Assembly (NCBI GenBank): GCA_000350305.1
Contig: CP002916.1
Coordinates: 186,001-250,000 of the forward strand
Source: Thermoplasmatales archaeon BRNA1
GTDB taxonomy: Archaea > Thermoplasmatota > Thermoplasmata > Methanomassiliicoccales > Methanomethylophilaceae
DNA length: 64,000 bases
Reading direction: 5' to 3'
Position numbers and translations under genes: made by a program. Below the pieces are notes generated by a model. The model searched no databases. It was not told the origin of the DNA and saw only the letters and a program-made list of their open reading frames with translations. This document shows positions 40,756 through 49,322 of this stretch, in pieces; the stretch's first letter is position 1; each line of letters opens with the position of its first letter.

Positions 40756-40962
40756 ATGAGAAAGAAATCATACAACATCATGATGGCTGCTTGTTTGGCC
40801 ATGATCTACATCCCTTACTTGATGTCATACTGGTTCGATGTTCTGTCCTCTTACACGGGGTTCGTCTTCACGACCGTCTCCTTTATCGCATTTGTTTCGC
40901 TTGTATTTTTGAGAGAAATCCTCAGAAGAAGGGGTGTTTTCGAAGAGGATTCCAACGGCTAA
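40756..40962 (+). CDS. Small two-helix membrane protein
   Basis: A 68-aa frame from ATG 40756, with AGGGA just upstream. Two hydrophobic helices (about residues 9-25 and 33-48) are followed by a charged tail L-R-R-R-G-V-F-E-E-D. No homologue is recognised. The upstream in-frame extension to 40615 is not protein-like, so I use the shorter start. Confidence 0.5.
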   Translation: MRKKSYNIMMAACLAMIYIPYLMSYWFDVLSSYTGFVFTTVSFIAFVSLVFLREILRRRGVFEEDSNG

Positions 40963-41103: not shown

Positions 41104-41700
41104 TCAGAACGGGGGCGCATATATTACAATCGCACTGCCGCAGACTAGAAGGATCCATCCTGCTATGTCACACATTCTCAATGAATGCCTAGCTCCGACA
41201 CGGTCTATTGTATACGGTACAGCCACGGGGCGGAGTATGAATGCGGCTCCGTATCCGACAATTAGAAGTCCCGCTCCTAAATGGACATTGCCGGCGAGGA
41301 CGGGTGCGAGAAAAAGAGCGAGCGGCAAAATGCAATATGAAATGAAGGATTTTGCAAAATTGCCTTCACGGCGTTTGTATCTCGTGAATTCCCTTTCGCA
41401 TTCACGTGAACAATAATCTCCGGAACAGCGATTATTGCACCATGCGCACTTGATCGCAATCTCCTCAGGATTGCTATTGATGGGGGCATTCCCCTCAACA
41501 CGGCCGTCGAATTTTCTGAAGTTAAGCGTTATGAAGAATAAGAAAATAACCGCAATCAGAGGAATAATCAGGTCTGCCATCCAAGAGCCAGATTCTTCAA
41601 GAATATGTGCTCTCAAGCCCCCTCCGATGGACACTCCGAATATTAGCCCCGCGATTGGGTAATATTTGTATTTCGACCACTCTCCCCTTCTCCAATTCAT
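41104..41700 (-). CDS. Membrane protein with a central zinc-finger motif
   Basis: A 198-aa protein. There are two helices at about residues 15-30 and 42-58, a cytoplasmic Cys motif C-A-W-C-N-N-R-C then Y-C-S-R-E-C (about 84-99), and three more helices from about 118 on. The Cys cluster resembles small DUF2116-like zinc fingers with the form C-x-x-C and C-S-x-x-C. The start ATG has GGTGA 6 bases upstream, and its promoter (TATA about 41757-41766) is one arm of the divergent pair around the operator at 41782. Function is unknown. Confidence 0.68.
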   Translation of the reverse strand: MNWRRGEWSKYKYYPIAGLIFGVSIGGGLRAHILEESGSWMADLIIPLIAVIFLFFITLNFRKFDGRVEGNAPINSNPEEIAIKCAWCNNRCSGDYCSRECEREFTRYKRREGNFAKSFISYCILPLALFLAPVLAGNVHLGAGLLIVGYGAAFILRPVAVPYTIDRVGARHSLRMCDIAGWILLVCGSAIVIYAPPF

Positions 41701-41781
41701 GTGAATTCACCCATCCCACAATCGTTGCACTGGCACATATGGCCTTAGACTTGTCCATATTTAAAGAGGATTCATGTAAGT

Positions 41782-41803
41782 AATCACTCACTGATGAGTG
41801 CTC
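41782..41803. promoter_or_regulatory. Operator-like site between divergent promoters, copy 1
   Basis: It begins AATCACTCACT and contains the inverted repeat CACTCA/TGAGTG (41785-41790 and 41795-41800). Its centre is about 31 bp from a minus-strand TATA (41757-41766) and about 31 bp from a plus-strand TATA (41819-41827). The first 11 bases and several later ones match the site at 48679-48700 beside the TetR gene. Confidence 0.65.
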
Positions 41804-41850
41804 AATCAAACACCTTTGCTTTTTATTCATGGAGAAAGTGGAATTTCAAC

Positions 41851-42012
41851 ATGGGTAACATAACGGAGGCAACCATGGAAGAATCCACCTCGTGTGGAGC
41901 GGGGCGTAGCGGTTTACTCTTTGCCACCCAAATGGCCTCCGTTAACGTTCCCTGCAAGTCGTATTACCTCTCTTTGAACGGCCTGATTGCCCACTCGGGG
42001 TGCGGATCTTGA
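41851..42012 (+). CDS. Small upstream reading frame overlapping the adhesin start
   Basis: It encodes 53 aa from ATG 41851, about where transcription should begin, or 45 aa from ATG 41875, which is preceded by a strong AACGGAGG. It ends in TGA 42010-42012, overlapping the adhesin start region. The peptide has Cys pairs and no recognisable fold. It may be a leader that couples translation to the adhesin, or a chance frame. Confidence 0.4.
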   Translation: MGNITEATMEESTSCGAGRSGLLFATQMASVNVPCKSYYLSLNGLIAHSGCGS

Positions 42013-45000
42013 CACTTTGCCATCTCAGGAAATACACGACAGTGGTATTCGCAATTGCACTCGTCGCAGTCGCAATTGCCTATATCGCAACGGACCTGTC
42101 TCAAGCCGACGAAGATCAGCCCCACACAATCACGTTTGACCCCAACACGGGGGAGGCCAAGGAATCCCGTATTTACGTCGCCGAGAACGTAATCGGTTCC
42201 ATATACATCCCCGGTAACGATTTCACAGTCGATGGTGTCGAGTATGAGTACACAAAGGACGGCTATTCTTTTGTCGGATGGTCTGAAAACCCTAATTCCC
42301 TGACCGCAAACATCATGGAGGGTTCTGTATGGGAAGTCCATGCTGACATGACCCTTTATGCGATCTGGGACGCCAATACATATGACGTCACCCTGCACTA
42401 CGGGAACACAACAACTACCATCGGTGTGAAGTACGGGACCACTACGGACACGACCCATATGATGTTTCTCTCTCCGCCTGGGATGAGTGACTATGTGATT
42501 GTTGGGTGGACAACCTACGATATGGTCGCAGAGGGCGAGAAAGATCTCGGAGGAAACGCATATGTCCTCAGATCCGGAGAAGATGTCGAATACTACTCGT
42601 TGAAGATTGCTCTTAAGAGACCGGGAAACGTTGACAACCTCTACCCGGTGTACGCTTACAAATATGATGTCAGCGGCAACGTCTCCGTGAATCTAGGTTC
42701 GGAGGCGACAGGGTGCTACTATATCACCGGTTCGGCTACAAGCGGTGGCGGGGTGAATATCAGCGGAGGATCCCCGACGCTGTATCTTGATTCGCTTACA
42801 CTCGACTTTTCGGCGAGAACGAATTCGAATTCGGCTCCCGTCGTCATAAGCAACGGCGCGGATGTCACGATCGTGACTCTCAGCGACTGCGTCATCAAAG
42901 GGGGATCCAACCAATCTGTGACTCCCAGGCCATCCGCATATGTCGGATATGCGGGAATCAATGTGAAGTCCGGATCTTCTCTGACAATCTCCTCGGCAAG
43001 CATAGGATCGCTTACGGCCACGGGCGGATCGGTTAAAGCCGTGTATGTAAACAGCGGCTGGGGCGGAACAAGATACAACGCATTCGCGGGGGCCGGAATA
43101 GGGGCGGATGGGAGAAACGGCGGCGATGACGGCTGCGGCTCCATCACCATCAACGGAGGGACCGTGACTGCCACGGGCGGATCTGGCTACATACCATACA
43201 ACAACCCGAACTATTACACCGTGATTTCTGGACCAGGCATAGGGGGGTCCGGTGGCACGGTGACCATCACGACGGGCTGTACCGTTGTAGCAGCATCCGG
43301 AAACCTGGCTCGTTATAGCGGGGAGACATACTACACGACAACTGCGGGGATTGCGCGCGATCCGATATATTGCAGCGTCGAGAATGTCGATCCTGATGCC
43401 AACGTTAGCAGGTTCGGACGCAACACTAGCTCCACGTCGGCACAGACGGTGGCCACTCTTTCGTTCCAATTTACCGGAAGCGTTGTCGGCTCAGCCACCA
43501 GTTTTACGATTGATGGGGAAAACACTGTCAACCTCGGCGGAATCGGAATAGATAATGACACGACGATCGAGATTGATGCCTCTCTGATTTCCGACGGGAG
43601 TACGGTGACCATCACCTCCGCCGCAATGAACTACTTTACCGGGACGGCATACGAAACAGACCCCGAGAACCACATGTTCACAGTCAGGAACATCACGATG
43701 AGTACAGATGCCTACACCGGTACCGTATCATTCAGCGTCAACGGCAGCCTGCTAAGCGAACCCATCGGTTACTACGGTGGAGTCTACAACTACTCGGAGA
43801 GCGGCGGCGAGAGCAGTTACAACTTCTACAACAGTTATTCGCTGGTTCTCGCGGCGAACGGTAGTAATCCTCCGTCCACTACCACTGCTACGGTTCGTTT
43901 TGCATTGGTCCTGTACGAAACCTATTCCTTCCTCGGAATGGAGATCAAGTCCGGGAACAACGGGGTTGAGTTCACCGACTATACTGCCGACTATGACTCT
44001 GTTCAGGGCGCTGTGATAATCTCGGCAAACGTCACGCTGGGCTATGGAAGGGATTCGACGATAGCGAACGACTTGTCGTTCACCATAGACAAGAAGAGTT
44101 ACGAGATCACGATACAGAACGTGTACAGCGGAGGGGACTCGTTCCCCGACGGCATTGTGACCTCTGATACTACCGTCCCTTCTGGCATCTCGTGGAACTC
44201 GGGTAATTCCATAGGCACACACAGAGTCTACCACGACGGAACCGTAACATACGTTGTGAATACGAACAACGAGCCGAGACCGTTCCATTTGGATTCCGTT
44301 ATAGTTGACGGCCGTTCGGTAGGATATGCGGATAATGGCGACGGCACATATTCGTTCACGCTCTACAACGTGGTCTCCGACAGGAACATCGCCATCAATT
44401 TCACGGAAACCGTGATAGTCAAGGCGTATGTGCCTGTAGTGCGGGGCACATCGACTGTTATCGGGACCATGATACTGGTCGACGAATCCGGCAACGCTTT
44501 AGCATCGTCTTACGGAAGCGATTCCGATGGAGAATACTACTATGCCGCAATCGAGAAGAACAAGGCTGTCCGTTTCACCGTGGAAATATTCGGGAACGAT
44601 TACGGTCTTGCTGCCGTCTATGCGATTGCATCCGACATGTCAACGACGCGTATCGGTTACCAATCCGGAGGGGATTACATCCTATCCGCTGTAACGTCTG
44701 ACACCTCCTTGGTTGCAGACGTTACCAACCTCACGTACTGGGTTGTCATTAGAAGCGGCTCCACAGACTACCTGTTCAAGGTCCCTGCCGACTCCTATTA
44801 TGCGGCACCCTCGCTGGAAGAGATCGAATCAATCGGCAGCCTGTACATAAAGAGGGGTTATGAGTTCGGCTACTGGGATATAGTGCAGATCCAAGTGGAT
44901 GCGGATCAGAACGTGACGGTGATTGGGGTGGGAGGCGAGGAATCCAAACTTCCCGGGGAGGAGAGGAAGATAGCCTCTGACATAATGTATAAGGCAGTTT

Positions 45001-46805
45001 GGACAGACACCAAGATAAGTTACAGCCTGTCCTTCGATCTCCAGGGCGGAGAAGCAGATAATCCGGATCACTACTTCATCGACGACGGCACAGTCATCCA
45101 GAACCCCACCCGTAAGGGATATGTCTTCGATTACTGGACAGGCACCGGAATCGATGGGACCGCACAATCCATTGTTTTCGATGCGGACACCTACGGCGAC
45201 AGGGCATACGTCGCCCATTGGACAGAGGCGATATTTCTCCAGGTCGAGTTGAGGGACAACAATCTCCACATCAACCCCGATGATGCTGTCATCGAGGTGC
45301 GCAGTTTCCAGTTCGGATCTGCATACGGCAGTCTCCCCATATTCTCCAACTATACCGACGGGTCGGTGACATACATATTCTACGGATGGGCCCTTCCGGA
45401 CGGAACCAAGATTGATTCCAACACCAGAGTGGACATCTACGATGATCAGTACATAGTCATCATCTGGGTGATCAACCACGGCTTCATCATCAACGTCGAC
45501 AACACTTCGACGGGAGGCGTCATCAGCAGCGTCAGTAGCTGCGCGATTGACACCGAGATTACGGTGAACCTGCTCCCCAGTCAGGGATACACGGCCGTGG
45601 GCCTTCTGATCAACGGCGTCCCCGCCGGTGATTTCGTTGCCGGAAGTTCTACATACACCTTCACTCCAGTCAGCAATACCACTCTGAAGGGCGTGTTCCA
45701 GACCATTGAATACACCGTAACGATCTACACGGGCATCGGCCCCGACTACAGCGATACGCCGATTGTGTACACCTATACCGTCAACGATAATCTGACGATT
45801 TCCTCCGCATCCGTGACATCCATACCCGGGTATGCATTTGACGGATGGTCTCTGCATCCTGGCGGCGAGGTGGCTGTGACCAATGCCATCATCATCGAGT
45901 CCCCCACAACGGTAAACTACACCTACTGGGAGGTTTGGCACATCGTCAAATACCACATAACATACGATCCGTTCAGAGGAGATAACGTTTCAGAATTCAG
46001 CATCGGCGATTCGATAACCCTGGTTCCCATCTCCGTCAGCGGGATGTATTTCGCCGGATGGTTCGACAATGAGGAGTATTCCGGGGACCCTGTCGAATCG
46101 TTCACCGCAACCTCTGACCATGATCTGTTCTTCTACGCCAGACTCATCCCGAAGGCGTATGCTCCTGTGGCGGTTGATTTCGTCTACGATGGCAAGCTGA
46201 AGACTGTAGCGTCAGAGAATGAGACCTATTCGGTCCAGCCCGGAGGAGTGATTTCGGCAACCGACGCAGGAACGTACTCGTTCACCCTATCCCTTGCACC
46301 AGGATACATCTGGGATGACGGAACAACTGACTCGAAGGATTATGTTTGGTCCATCTGTTCACGGCACGTGTATGTGATAGCGGATAGCTCCGAGTGGAGA
46401 TTCGGTCAAACGATCGAAATCGGCGGATTCACCGTCATTGGTCTTGCCGACTCCCATATGCTCAGCGCTTCAGCGGCTCCCGAATCAGAGATTGCCGACA
46501 TCGGCACTTACAGGAACATCATCGATCCGGATTCCGTCACCATCATAGACCAGTATGACGACAGCGTCAAGGCGAACTACATAATCCACCTCACCGACGG
46601 AATGATATCGGTCAGTGACCCGATGTACAGTTCGGTGACTGTCACGGTGGAACCAGGGGATGAAGGGGATTCAGATGGTTTCGGAGCATCACTGAGAGAT
46701 CTTCTTGAATCAGACTCCATGAGGAACGTTGCCCCCTTCCTGATTTTGGCTCTATTCCTGATTATACTCTACGCTGCTCTCTCCTGGAGGTGGGATCGTA
46801 CTTGA
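42000..46805 (+). CDS. Large cell-surface adhesin-like protein with Listeria-Bacteroides repeats
   Basis: A protein of about 1600 aa. It has a basic N-terminus and a hydrophobic signal/anchor helix (about residues 11-33), a long Thr/Ser/Gly/Asp-rich beta region (about 190-700), then several flg_new/InlB-B-type repeats recognised by G-Y-x-F-x-G-W or similar (for example near 90-100, 1040-1050, 1280 and 1350) followed by T-L-Y-A-I-W or its variants. A C-terminal membrane helix (about 1573-1592) ends in S-W-R-W-D-R-T. This is an archaeal adhesin-like protein typical of gut methanogens. The start is GTG 42000; TTG 42009, with GGGGTG upstream, is equally possible. Promoter and operator lie at 41782-41827. 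Confidence 0.85.
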   Translation: MRILTLCHLRKYTTVVFAIALVAVAIAYIATDLSQADEDQPHTITFDPNTGEAKESRIYVAENVIGSIYIPGNDFTVDGVEYEYTKDGYSFVGWSENPNSLTANIMEGSVWEVHADMTLYAIWDANTYDVTLHYGNTTTTIGVKYGTTTDTTHMMFLSPPGMSDYVIVGWTTYDMVAEGEKDLGGNAYVLRSGEDVEYYSLKIALKRPGNVDNLYPVYAYKYDVSGNVSVNLGSEATGCYYITGSATSGGGVNISGGSPTLYLDSLTLDFSARTNSNSAPVVISNGADVTIVTLSDCVIKGGSNQSVTPRPSAYVGYAGINVKSGSSLTISSASIGSLTATGGSVKAVYVNSGWGGTRYNAFAGAGIGADGRNGGDDGCGSITINGGTVTATGGSGYIPYNNPNYYTVISGPGIGGSGGTVTITTGCTVVAASGNLARYSGETYYTTTAGIARDPIYCSVENVDPDANVSRFGRNTSSTSAQTVATLSFQFTGSVVGSATSFTIDGENTVNLGGIGIDNDTTIEIDASLISDGSTVTITSAAMNYFTGTAYETDPENHMFTVRNITMSTDAYTGTVSFSVNGSLLSEPIGYYGGVYNYSESGGESSYNFYNSYSLVLAANGSNPPSTTTATVRFALVLYETYSFLGMEIKSGNNGVEFTDYTADYDSVQGAVIISANVTLGYGRDSTIANDLSFTIDKKSYEITIQNVYSGGDSFPDGIVTSDTTVPSGISWNSGNSIGTHRVYHDGTVTYVVNTNNEPRPFHLDSVIVDGRSVGYADNGDGTYSFTLYNVVSDRNIAINFTETVIVKAYVPVVRGTSTVIGTMILVDESGNALASSYGSDSDGEYYYAAIEKNKAVRFTVEIFGNDYGLAAVYAIASDMSTTRIGYQSGGDYILSAVTSDTSLVADVTNLTYWVVIRSGSTDYLFKVPADSYYAAPSLEEIESIGSLYIKRGYEFGYWDIVQIQVDADQNVTVIGVGGEESKLPGEERKIASDIMYKAVWTDTKISYSLSFDLQGGEADNPDHYFIDDGTVIQNPTRKGYVFDYWTGTGIDGTAQSIVFDADTYGDRAYVAHWTEAIFLQVELRDNNLHINPDDAVIEVRSFQFGSAYGSLPIFSNYTDGSVTYIFYGWALPDGTKIDSNTRVDIYDDQYIVIIWVINHGFIINVDNTSTGGVISSVSSCAIDTEITVNLLPSQGYTAVGLLINGVPAGDFVAGSSTYTFTPVSNTTLKGVFQTIEYTVTIYTGIGPDYSDTPIVYTYTVNDNLTISSASVTSIPGYAFDGWSLHPGGEVAVTNAIIIESPTTVNYTYWEVWHIVKYHITYDPFRGDNVSEFSIGDSITLVPISVSGMYFAGWFDNEEYSGDPVESFTATSDHDLFFYARLIPKAYAPVAVDFVYDGKLKTVASENETYSVQPGGVISATDAGTYSFTLSLAPGYIWDDGTTDSKDYVWSICSRHVYVIADSSEWRFGQTIEIGGFTVIGLADSHMLSASAAPESEIADIGTYRNIIDPDSVTIIDQYDDSVKANYIIHLTDGMISVSDPMYSSVTVTVEPGDEGDSDGFGASLRDLLESDSMRNVAPFLILALFLIILYAALSWRWDRT

Positions 46806-46860
46806 TTCCTGAAAATGGCGATTCTCTCCATCGACCTGATGGGGCGAAAGGAGTCGAAAC

Positions 46861-47667
46861 ATGTCTGCACTGATTTTCACGGACATTGCGTTAGAGGATC
46901 TCGGGGGCCACCCCTTCGAAGATAAGATTCCCGGAGGGGTTGCGACATGCCATCGCTGGGGGCCTCTTGCATTTAGGCGCATTGATGAAAAAAAGGTTGA
47001 ACTTTTGGCAAAACAGTTCGATAAAGTTGATTTCGGGACGGAAAGAGATCTTCATCTCTATCAGTGCTCTGCAATCGAGAGGGTGTCCGAAAAGATCTAC
47101 TTCAACATGTATGCTGGCATGCACACATGCTACGCCCTTGTTCCGTTTGCTTGCAGATATCTTCGCGATGGCCACTATGTCGCCATTCACATCGGCGATG
47201 AGGGTTGGCATCCTCACTACCACCCAACGATCAACGTAACCGTCTCTCCTGAGGGGATTAGGGATCTTCAACACGGTTTCCTGGACATGGACGGCATGTT
47301 CATTTTCCGGCCGCAGGGAGGGACCTATGAACCTCTTGCTATAATCTTCGACCAAATGTGCCAGGATACCCCCGAAAGATCGGACTGGCATACGTGGATG
47401 CTTCCCAAGAAGGAGACCACGGTCGGAGAACTTGTAACCAGACTCGGGATAAGGTCGGATACTGTTGTGATCCTCAGACCCCTGGATTCCCAGAGGGACG
47501 GCATGCCCTTCGGAAATCATTCGAACATCTGGGAGCTTGTTCACAGGGACTCCGCCTACAAACTGAGCATAGTCGAAGGATACCGTCTTTATTTCAAGAC
47601 ATCCCACGGAGACCCCTCAGCATTCGGTGAGATGGAACCGGAGGTGTACATCAAATTGAAACCATGA
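46861..47667 (+). CDS. Protein of unknown function downstream of the adhesin
   Basis: A 268-aa soluble protein with a good ribosome site (AAAGGAG) upstream of ATG 46861, 55 bp after the adhesin. It is rich in His, Tyr and Trp, with H-I-G-D-E-G-W-H-P-H-Y-H-P near residues 116-128 that could bind metal. No signal peptide or membrane helix is seen, and I recognise no family. It may be co-transcribed with the adhesin. Confidence 0.65.
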   Translation: MSALIFTDIALEDLGGHPFEDKIPGGVATCHRWGPLAFRRIDEKKVELLAKQFDKVDFGTERDLHLYQCSAIERVSEKIYFNMYAGMHTCYALVPFACRYLRDGHYVAIHIGDEGWHPHYHPTINVTVSPEGIRDLQHGFLDMDGMFIFRPQGGTYEPLAIIFDQMCQDTPERSDWHTWMLPKKETTVGELVTRLGIRSDTVVILRPLDSQRDGMPFGNHSNIWELVHRDSAYKLSIVEGYRLYFKTSHGDPSAFGEMEPEVYIKLKP

Positions 47668-47746
47668 CGGCATAAAGAAACATCATTTACTGCCGCTGGA
47701 ATCGGACACATCCTCTTCTGCAGAATCAGGATCGTCCGGAAGCCGG

Positions 47747-48343
47747 TCAGTCATTCTCCAGCTCCTCATTTTTGTCTTCCGCTTCTGTCGTCCAAGAACA
47801 ATTCTCGACCGCATCCTCGGATTCGGGGCTGTCTATGGATGTGAAGCCCCCATATACGTAACCGTTTGTCAGACGTATTTCGGGTTCGTCGTAAACAATC
47901 ACATACATTGCAGATCCGTCAAACGTGCTCTTCATGGCCGTCTCGTAATGAGGAGGGCCGTCATCTACTAAGCGACGCAGCTTCCACCAAGAGATTGCAT
48001 TGATCACGGCAAAGAAACAGAAAACCAAGAATGCACCCATGGCGAAAGCATGGGAAACTGTCATGCCCATTACGTCATCGAAGACGTATAATGTGTCTCC
48101 GCCTGCCAGTGTTTTATAGGCCGTCGATAGCGAGCGGTCGATACAATACGCAACGTATGCCGAGCAAAGACCCGCTGCTGCCATGAATACGCCGGACCAT
48201 AGAATCCACTTTGAAGAACGGTATATCCCTTTGCCCAATATTGTACGTCCGCCATCACCAGTGCAACCGTTGCAAACAGTCTCCGTGGAATCATCACACT
48301 GACACTCGTGTCCTTCGGTTGTTCCATCATTCTTTTCGGTCAC
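47747..48343 (-). CDS. Two-helix membrane protein, function unknown
   Basis: 198 aa from GTG 48343, which has GAAGGGGG upstream. There is a Cys-rich N-terminal segment (C-Q-C-D-D, then C-N-G-C, about residues 14-29), two membrane helices (about 45-70 and 100-120), then a soluble C-terminal part with acidic ends. The same frame extends upstream for about 98 codons interrupted by a single TGA at 48458-48460, so this may be the 3' part of a longer damaged gene (see next entry). It diverges from TetR across the operator at 48679. Confidence 0.55.
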   Translation of the reverse strand: MTEKNDGTTEGHECQCDDSTETVCNGCTGDGGRTILGKGIYRSSKWILWSGVFMAAAGLCSAYVAYCIDRSLSTAYKTLAGGDTLYVFDDVMGMTVSHAFAMGAFLVFCFFAVINAISWWKLRRLVDDGPPHYETAMKSTFDGSAMYVIVYDEPEIRLTNGYVYGGFTSIDSPESEDAVENCSWTTEAEDKNEELEND

Positions 48344-48637
48344 ATATAGGCCCCCTTCGGCAAAGGAAAGCTTAGGCAAATGCCGTCCCGAGGAAACAAA
48401 GATTGTTTCGTGGCCGCAGTCTGCGGCTGTTTCCCAATCGAAATTCCTCCAAGAATCTCAGACGTTGACAAATCGACAGTCACCCCATTCCATATCGTGC
48501 CGATCCGTGACGACTCCAGAGGGTGAGACGGCCAACTCTTCCGCAGGAAAAAGAGAACCCGAATCACAACCGTGGGGGTTGCTCTTGACTTCCAAAGTCG
48601 TCCCATAACACCGTATCTGCCGTTGGATTAGCGGCAA
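48344..48637 (-). pseudogene. Upstream in-frame segment interrupted by TGA
   Basis: From TTG 48637 the minus-strand frame reads protein-like sequence (for example C-Y-G-T-T-L-E-V-K and H-D-M-E-W-G-D-C), meets TGA at 48458-48460, and continues (W-R-N-F-D-W-E-T-A-A-D) into the membrane-protein frame. A competing 88-aa frame from ATG 48606 ends at 48340 in a GTGA overlap but has a shadow-like composition. A nonsense mutation is the simplest reading. Confidence 0.4.
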
Positions 48638-48678
48638 TACGTTGTGTTTTTAGACATTTAACAAATCGTTATGTGAAC

Positions 48679-48700
48679 AATCACTCACTACAAAGTGATT
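48679..48700. promoter_or_regulatory. Operator-like site between divergent promoters, copy 2
   Basis: It begins AATCACTCACT and has the perfect inverted repeat AATCACT/AGTGATT (48679-48685 and 48694-48700). Its centre is about 30 bp from the TetR TATA box (48716-48723) and about 31 bp from a minus-strand TATA-like element (48655-48661). The spacing mirrors copy 1 at 41782. Confidence 0.7.
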
Positions 48701-48746
48701 GGTTGCACACCTCTGATATTTATGTAGTGCAGACGATGGAAATGGG

Positions 48747-49322
48747 ATGGCGAATAAGAAGGGGGAGATAATAGATACGACAATACGCCACATTGCCGAA
48801 CGGGGTGACTCTTTTTCCACGGCACAGATCGCATCTGAAATCGGATGTTCTCAATCACTGATATTCAGGTACTACAGGTCAAAGGATCATTTGATGTCGG
48901 AATGTTTCGACAGGATATGCCACGAACTGAAGGTGATTTTCAAAAGTGTGAAAGTTCCAGACGTTCTGGTCCGCGAGTCGGTCATCGAATACATGGTTAA
49001 TGTCTAGGAAGCATATTGTGACCGGCTGGAATCCAACGACCATGTCGCCAAGGCCTACATATTCTTCGTAAGCACTGGCAGACGATTTCCTCATGGCTTC
49101 AGAACCGCTGATGCCGTTCTGAAGAACATACTTAGGCAGGACTATGATCGCTTGAAGAAGGCCTATCCGGATTTCGATTTCGTAGCCGGTTACATCATAA
49201 TGATATCCAACCTCATAGCAACCGGCAAATTCATCGACCGGACATAGTGCGATGACGTGATGGCAAAACTCGAAGAGATCCTCAAATACGGCATTTTGGG
49301 AATCGAAGGGAAAAAAGATTGA
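48747..49322 (+). CDS. TetR-family regulator with two in-frame TAG codons
   Basis: Reading both TAG codons (49005-49007, codon 87; 49245-49247, codon 167) as amino acids gives 191 aa ending at TGA 49320-49322, the usual TetR length. Residues 8-57 form the HTH domain (T-A-Q-I-A-S-E-I-G-C-S-Q-S-L-I-F-R-Y-Y-R-S-K-D-H-L). The part after codon 87 is helical with A-K-A-Y-I-F-F-V and a final A-K-L-E-E-I-L-K-Y-G-I, typical of TetR ligand/dimerisation domains. Stopping at the first TAG would leave only the DNA-binding domain. Its promoter contains an inverted repeat, so autoregulation is likely. TATA spacing suggests a leaderless mRNA. Confidence 0.8.

Follow-up and report, generated by a model that had tools for sequence, protein, structure and literature searches.

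Two matching sites between divergent promoters

The 64,000-nucleotide stretch of the Thermoplasmatales archaeon BRNA1 genome analysed here (the window; contig CP002916.1, positions 186,001 to 250,000) carries at 48747–49322, on the plus strand, a gene for a TetR-family regulator, whose 191 codons include in-frame TAG codons at positions 87 and 167 and are followed by a TGA stop. This assignment draws on the reading frame, Pfam, a structure model and homologues. A dyad, AATCACT-N8-AGTGATT (site 2, 48679–48700), lies between the TetR promoter and the divergent promoter of a membrane protein gene (47747–48379, minus strand). An imperfect dyad (site 1, 41782–41803) lies between divergent promoters that face an adhesin-like gene (42000–46805, plus strand) and a zinc-ribbon membrane protein gene (41104–41700, minus strand). 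We propose that the two sites are probably paired, promoter-attached elements of a small, local TetR regulon that covers membrane and surface genes of a methanogenic archaeon coding for pyrrolysine, a reading built on sequence comparisons.

A preliminary description of the window had reported matching sites at 41782 and 48679 in this same gene context, each centred about 30–31 bp from divergent TATA boxes, and these observations were borne out. Motif scanning found AATCACTCACT-N4-AGTG without mismatch at 41782–41800 and 48679–48697. The genome-wide scan for this motif that had been suggested there was also run (1,461,105 bases), and returned the two window sites as the sole perfect matches, with no place at one mismatch and a single place at two mismatches that overlaps site 2. 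When up to three mismatches were allowed, the window held four matches compared with a mean of 1.14 in shuffled sequence, and the extra two overlap site 2 on the minus strand. The dyad ATCACT-N8-AGTGAT occurs at 41783–41802 with one mismatch and at 48680–48699 with none, giving centres at 41792.5 and 48689.5. All four TATA boxes (centred at 41761.5 and 48658.5 on the minus strand, and at 41823.5 and 48720.5 on the plus strand) lie 31 bp from their own dyad centre.

The likeness between the two sites is broader than was first described, with 36 of 53 bases equal between 41774–41826 and 48671–48723. Beyond this stretch, identity drops to 24/74 on one side and 23/74 on the other. A recent duplication of a promoter segment was considered and rejected on these flanking values, together with the dissimilarity of the proteins encoded on the two minus strands.

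Conservation of the element at TetR promoters

Of 102 genomes in the family, 27 gave matches to a profile made from three TetR proteins. In 12 of these the match extends over most of the profile length, at thirteen places in all, and the upstream regions of all 13 were inspected; the remaining matches cover only the N-terminal part. The relatives include proteins of Thermoplasmata archaeon isolate SIG3 and methanogenic archaeon isolate RUG10898, and two congeners of the window genome (G000), here G006 and G012, have a full-length orthologue. When the full dyad was sought around the orthologues of the congeners, a single unrelated match was all that appeared, which led to the examination of a one-sided element.

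The sequence GTGA-N8-RYAMCT-N5-TATA, or a near variant, precedes the TetR gene in all seven close orthologues (G000, G006, G012, G088, G089, G091 and G120), with GTGA starting 51–56 nucleotides (nt) before the ATG. Leave-one-out scores for these seven promoters range from 23.1 to 38.8 bits, both window sites having been omitted from training when G000 was scored. Upstream of the six more distant full-length relatives the element is absent in every case (scores of at most 6.1). Conservation next to orthologous genes, the absence of which was to have counted against the preliminary description, was thus found among the close TetR genes and is confined to them. In the same seven genomes the TATA centre lies 25.5–30.5 nt from the TetR ATG (26.5 nt in the window), and a TATA centre about 25–30 nt from the start codon is the geometry of leaderless archaeal mRNAs.

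The step from GTGA to TATA is constant across all promoters aligned. The gap between facing GTGA halves, as measured by eye, is 10 nt at both window sites, 2 nt in G089, 12 nt in G091 and 13 nt in G088, and G006 and G012 have the TetR half with no clear left element before it. Because the step to TATA is fixed, the gap between halves is variable and some relatives are one-sided, we infer that the unit is one element fixed to each TATA box, and that the dyad represents two such elements back to back. The mirrored geometry had originally been taken to mean that one regulator acts on four transcription units through two operators. The grouping of the four promoters gains support from the matrix rankings below, and the operator itself is amended to one element per promoter.

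Specificity of the combined element and TATA box

In the window, the element with its TATA box spans 48695–48722 (plus strand, TetR promoter), 41798–41825 (plus strand, site 1), 48655–48684 (minus strand, site 2) and 41758–41787 (minus strand, site 1). The two plus-strand copies are perfect matches to a composite pattern, and the minus-strand copies match a left-type pattern with two mismatches at site 2 and none at site 1. Searching 14 genomes of the genus with the composite GTGM-N8-ACACCTYTNNTWTTTA, at up to two mismatches, gave four matches, all perfect, and one for the reversed control. These four are the TetR promoters of G000, G006 and G012 and the adhesin-side promoter of the window. 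The left-type pattern, at up to three mismatches in 11 genomes, gave eight matches and one for its control. Two of the eight are the minus-strand promoters of the window, and three are the promoters that face away from TetR in G088, G089 and G091. Of the remaining three, one lies in G012, about 340 bp past the TetR gene, and two, with three mismatches each, lie on other contigs of G091. A looser search with the right element (three mismatches) added matches at chance level, on which no claim rests.

Matrices derived from other genomes yield similar results. With a matrix from the six TetR promoters of other genomes, the plus-strand sites of the window rank first and second (24.3 bits for site 1 and 23.1 bits for site 2; next 17.4), and the best score in 20 Markov windows is 16.6. 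With a matrix from three left-type promoters, the minus-strand sites rank first (site 2, 26.5) and second (site 1, 21.1), the next score being 14.4 and the best Markov score 17.0. A joint matrix trained on 12 promoters from other genomes places the four window promoters at ranks 1 to 4 (25.8 bits for the minus strand of site 2, 25.2 for the minus strand of site 1, 22.7 for the TetR promoter and 20.5 for the plus strand of site 1), 10 bits above the next score of 10.3, and the best Markov window reaches 15.5 bits. The composition of other promoters at the TFB recognition element (BRE, where TFB is transcription factor B) was also considered, and a TATA box was obtained for 7 of 61 open reading frames (ORFs), too few to judge BRE strength.

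Several observations weigh against the likeness of the two sites or against the proposed regulon. The bare similarity of the two sites is unexceptional, as the window has 24 other offsets at 36/53 or better. Taken by itself this would suit a chance likeness between two AT-rich intergenic regions, an explanation that is scarcely credible given that the exact motif is unique genome-wide and set in a symmetrical 31-bp geometry; it is already contradicted by the composite matches in congeners and the matrices from other genomes. The pair is set above chance by its exact repetition, its position and its conservation in other genomes. The matrices have their own weaknesses: registers were set by eye, and 3 of the 12 promoters used for joint training were found by pattern, one pattern having been built with the window sites in view. 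When the TATA part is removed, site 1 falls to rank 9, and site 2 stays first at 15.6 compared with a best Markov score of 15.8. The specificity resides in the element and the TATA box combined. Further, the 210-amino-acid (aa) membrane protein divergent from TetR has no relative in the 102 family genomes besides itself, and the two TAG codons mean that the TetR frame may not yield a full-length protein.

The left-type core, CGTAACT-N5-TTAAATA, adds a further caution. At up to one mismatch it has four matches in the 11 genomes (one each in G088 and G089, and two in G006, which share a contig with the TetR gene and lie 0.7 and 2.3 kb past it), and its reversed control has five scattered matches, so that the number is no excess. 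The force of these matches lies in their place near TetR and not in their number. A generic promoter element was rejected as an explanation on the grounds that the core has so few matches, all within 3 kb of TetR, a judgement to be read with the five control matches in mind.

An element at the TetR gene's own promoter could also track the gene by descent, whatever protein reads it. Some other DNA-binding protein, or a separate promoter class, might then read the element, with the TetR gene merely one target, and archaeal promoters often do carry upstream sites for several regulators. We regard this alternative as unlikely, because all four composite matches among the 14 genus genomes fall in the three genomes with a full-length TetR orthologue, and because the further copies, those not at the TetR promoter, are close to TetR (0.3–7 kb) in G000, G006 and G012.

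A candidate regulator with in-frame TAG codons

The TetR frame starts at 48747 and runs to a TGA at codon 192 with no TAA, TGA or frameshift within its 191 codons. The N-terminal TetR helix-turn-helix family PF00440 matches residues 8–52 at 34.1 bits (cut-off 24). A model of the read-through protein has ten helices, including an all-helical C-terminal dimer/ligand domain, with a mean pLDDT (predicted local distance difference test) of 80 and poor values near residues 163–168 and 184–191; residue 87 falls within helix 76–96. A structure search with this model gave 23 matches in the PDB at E ≤ 0.001, and among the matches listed almost all are of TetR type. No NCBIfam equivalog cut-off was reached for named TetR subfamilies (FadR, BetI, AcrR and others), the best scores being those of BetI models (33.4 bits against a cut-off of 201.3, and 33.1 against 118); bacterial FadR scored 20.1 against 200.

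The preliminary description did not mention the two in-frame TAG codons, which could denote either pyrrolysine or gene decay. The TetR gene might be a decaying pseudogene here, with the sites as remnants of a regulon that is still functional in relatives. Such decay would be in keeping with the two TAG codons, one of which (codon 87) stands where tryptophan is kept in 8 of 8 other aligned homologues. It would also suit the protein's divergence at 7 of 46 columns that are otherwise invariant, which exceeds that of the two congeners (1/40 and 3/42). However, two distant orthologues that lack TAG depart equally (G089, 7/46; G120, 8/47), no damage is seen in either site or in any of the four promoter elements, and the genome carries pylS, pylC, pylD and an mtmB gene with an internal TAG. 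We therefore hold decay to be quite unlikely, and the intact frame and promoter lean towards the TAG codons being read as pyrrolysine, which makes TetR a candidate pyrrolysine-containing protein. Pyrrolysine has been predicted in some non-methyltransferase genes of related Methanomassiliicoccales, as set out in a portion of PMC4153887. Those genes, as they appear there, share with this one an in-frame TAG in an ordinary gene of a pyrrolysine-coding genome, whereas the gene in the window encodes a transcription regulator and has two TAG codons, one of them at a conserved tryptophan.

A further idea, which we consider decidedly unlikely, is that TetR is gated by pyrrolysine. Full-length protein would be made only with charged tRNA-Pyl and an 86-residue stub otherwise, thereby coupling the display of adhesin and membrane proteins to the pyrrolysine (methylamine) state. 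If so, the stub would be a DNA-binding domain without the dimer/ligand domain, and control would run through two UAG codons. These codons offer a direct way to see whether pyrrolysine reaches regulatory proteins, and TetR orthologues without TAG, those of G006 and G012 among them, make binding testable without pyrrolysine.

A proposed mechanism and its relation to known regulators

Returning to the proposed TetR regulon, we infer the sign of regulation, the presence of a ligand and the role of TetR as the protein that binds. At each of the four promoters the binding element would be GTGA-N8-RYAMCT or a near variant, whose end is about 5 nt upstream of TATA, and a back-to-back pair would form the dyad. 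TetR would most likely bind the predicted elements at its own promoter and at that of the divergent membrane gene, and also those 7 kb away at the adhesin and zinc-ribbon membrane gene promoters, and a ligand would most likely alter this binding. The predicted element abuts the place of the BRE, and a bound dimer could thus either block TFB, causing repression, or help to recruit TATA-binding protein and TFB, causing activation. Repression is the usual behaviour of TetR proteins, and we slightly favour it here over activation. For the TrmB type of archaeal regulator, a section of PMC4158304 associates activation with sites upstream of BRE/TATA and repression with downstream sites. If the proposal is correct, the TATA-attached element, single or in back-to-back pairs, would be the unit of control. 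A named element, four promoters and one candidate regulator together make a testable regulon for surface and membrane proteins of a pyrrolysine-coding methanogen. Among the open-licence papers listed in searches on regulators of adhesin-like proteins or on TetR regulators in the order, none showed a description of this regulon or a described regulator for surface and membrane genes of this sort.

The nearest archaeal parallel considered is FadRSa of Sulfolobus acidocaldarius, a TetR-family local repressor with four reported genomic sites (PMC6449355, in part). The account given there resembles the present case in having few genomic sites in one region, including the regulator's own promoter, and in the semi-palindromic form of the sites. 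In the same partial account, those sites serve lipid genes and are placed either just downstream of the start of the regulator itself or 130 bp or more upstream of other promoters, whereas the elements described here lie directly upstream of each TATA box and the putative targets are membrane and adhesin genes. FadRSa (6el2) ranks 31st in the structure search at 17% identity and is by sequence no close relative. The element of TrmBL1/Tgr, Ptr2 and TFB-RF1, as given in extracts of PMC4158304, likewise lies just upstream of BRE/TATA, a position for which dual or activating roles are described; these regulators, unlike the window regulator, are not of the TetR family. The TetR activator CAETHG_0459 of acetogens (PMC6873888, in part) similarly links a TetR protein to a promoter motif common to several genes. 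It differs in being bacterial and in binding RNA polymerase as described in that source, and it is likened here by description.

Putative target genes and the surrounding stretch

The common theme of the putative targets is membrane and secreted proteins. The adhesin-like protein (1601 aa) has an N-terminal signal-like stretch, a C-terminal hydrophobic stretch and Listeria-Bacteroides repeats (PF09479, 69 bits, cut-off 27; TIGR02543, 46 bits, cut-off 20.95). Listeria-Bacteroides repeat proteins are counted among the adhesion proteins of host-associated members of the order in a passage of PMC7883539. The first ATG on the plus-strand side of site 1 lies at a leaderless distance of 27.5 nt from the TATA centre and begins a 53-aa frame (41851–42012) whose end overlaps the GTG start of the adhesin gene. 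A 268-aa gene of unknown family (46861–47667, plus strand) follows the adhesin gene after 55 nt and is possibly co-transcribed with it. On the minus strand of site 1, the first ATG is 23.5 nt from the TATA centre. It opens a 13-codon frame (41697–41738), MCQCNDCGMGEFT, whose TGA overlaps the ATG of the zinc-ribbon gene. At site 2, the minus-strand gene encodes at most 210 aa with an uncertain start (198 aa from a GTG), and the ATG nearest to the TATA box, at 52.5 nt, is in another frame.

The zinc-ribbon membrane protein (198 aa) provides a link to TetR in another genome. A 118-aa zinc-ribbon membrane protein of G120 is homologous to it (31.5% over 149 aa, E = 1.9e-8; 36% when aligned), and the start codon of that protein overlaps the stop of the TetR gene (ATGA). 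In the window the zinc-ribbon gene is 7 kb from TetR, yet the element is present at both. Other zinc-ribbon homologues come from genomes that lack this TetR, and none of them has a TetR of this kind as a neighbour. The best right-element score at these homologues is 10.4 bits, and left-element scores there are 21.0 (L107), 16.4 (L091) and 15.9 (L094).

Genes divergent from TetR in other genomes encode a DUF3784-type membrane protein (G088), a membrane protein of 70–83 aa (G091) and a secreted protein rich in Gly and Ala (G089). The G089 protein has a homologue (28%) behind one of the two elements in G006. These homologous secreted proteins (L054:10215–10790 and L053:8217–8861, both minus strand), behind elements in G006 and G089, have a Gly/Ala-rich hydrophobic stretch and no Pfam family. 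The secreted protein was rejected as a general member of the regulon: it occurs in 4 of 102 genomes and is absent from the window genome, and its loci in the TetR-less G013 and G079 reach no more than 14.3. A PADLOC search for defence systems gave nothing of weight.

A small membrane protein starting MRKKSY is encoded at 40756–40962 on the plus strand and, judged by eye, is similar to the MKKSY membrane protein whose gene diverges from TetR in G091; upstream of the window gene, no element of the GTGA-N8-RYAMCT type stands out. The region 41104–49322 has a third-codon G+C of 0.48–0.64, compared with 0.84–0.85 in two flanking genes, which we take to be larC-like and aldehyde-dehydrogenase-like, and it is perhaps an acquired or fast-evolving island. 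In G012, the element about 340 bp beyond TetR (L051:8899–8932, minus strand) has no clear gene behind it and adjoins a gene that is presumably TnpB-like.

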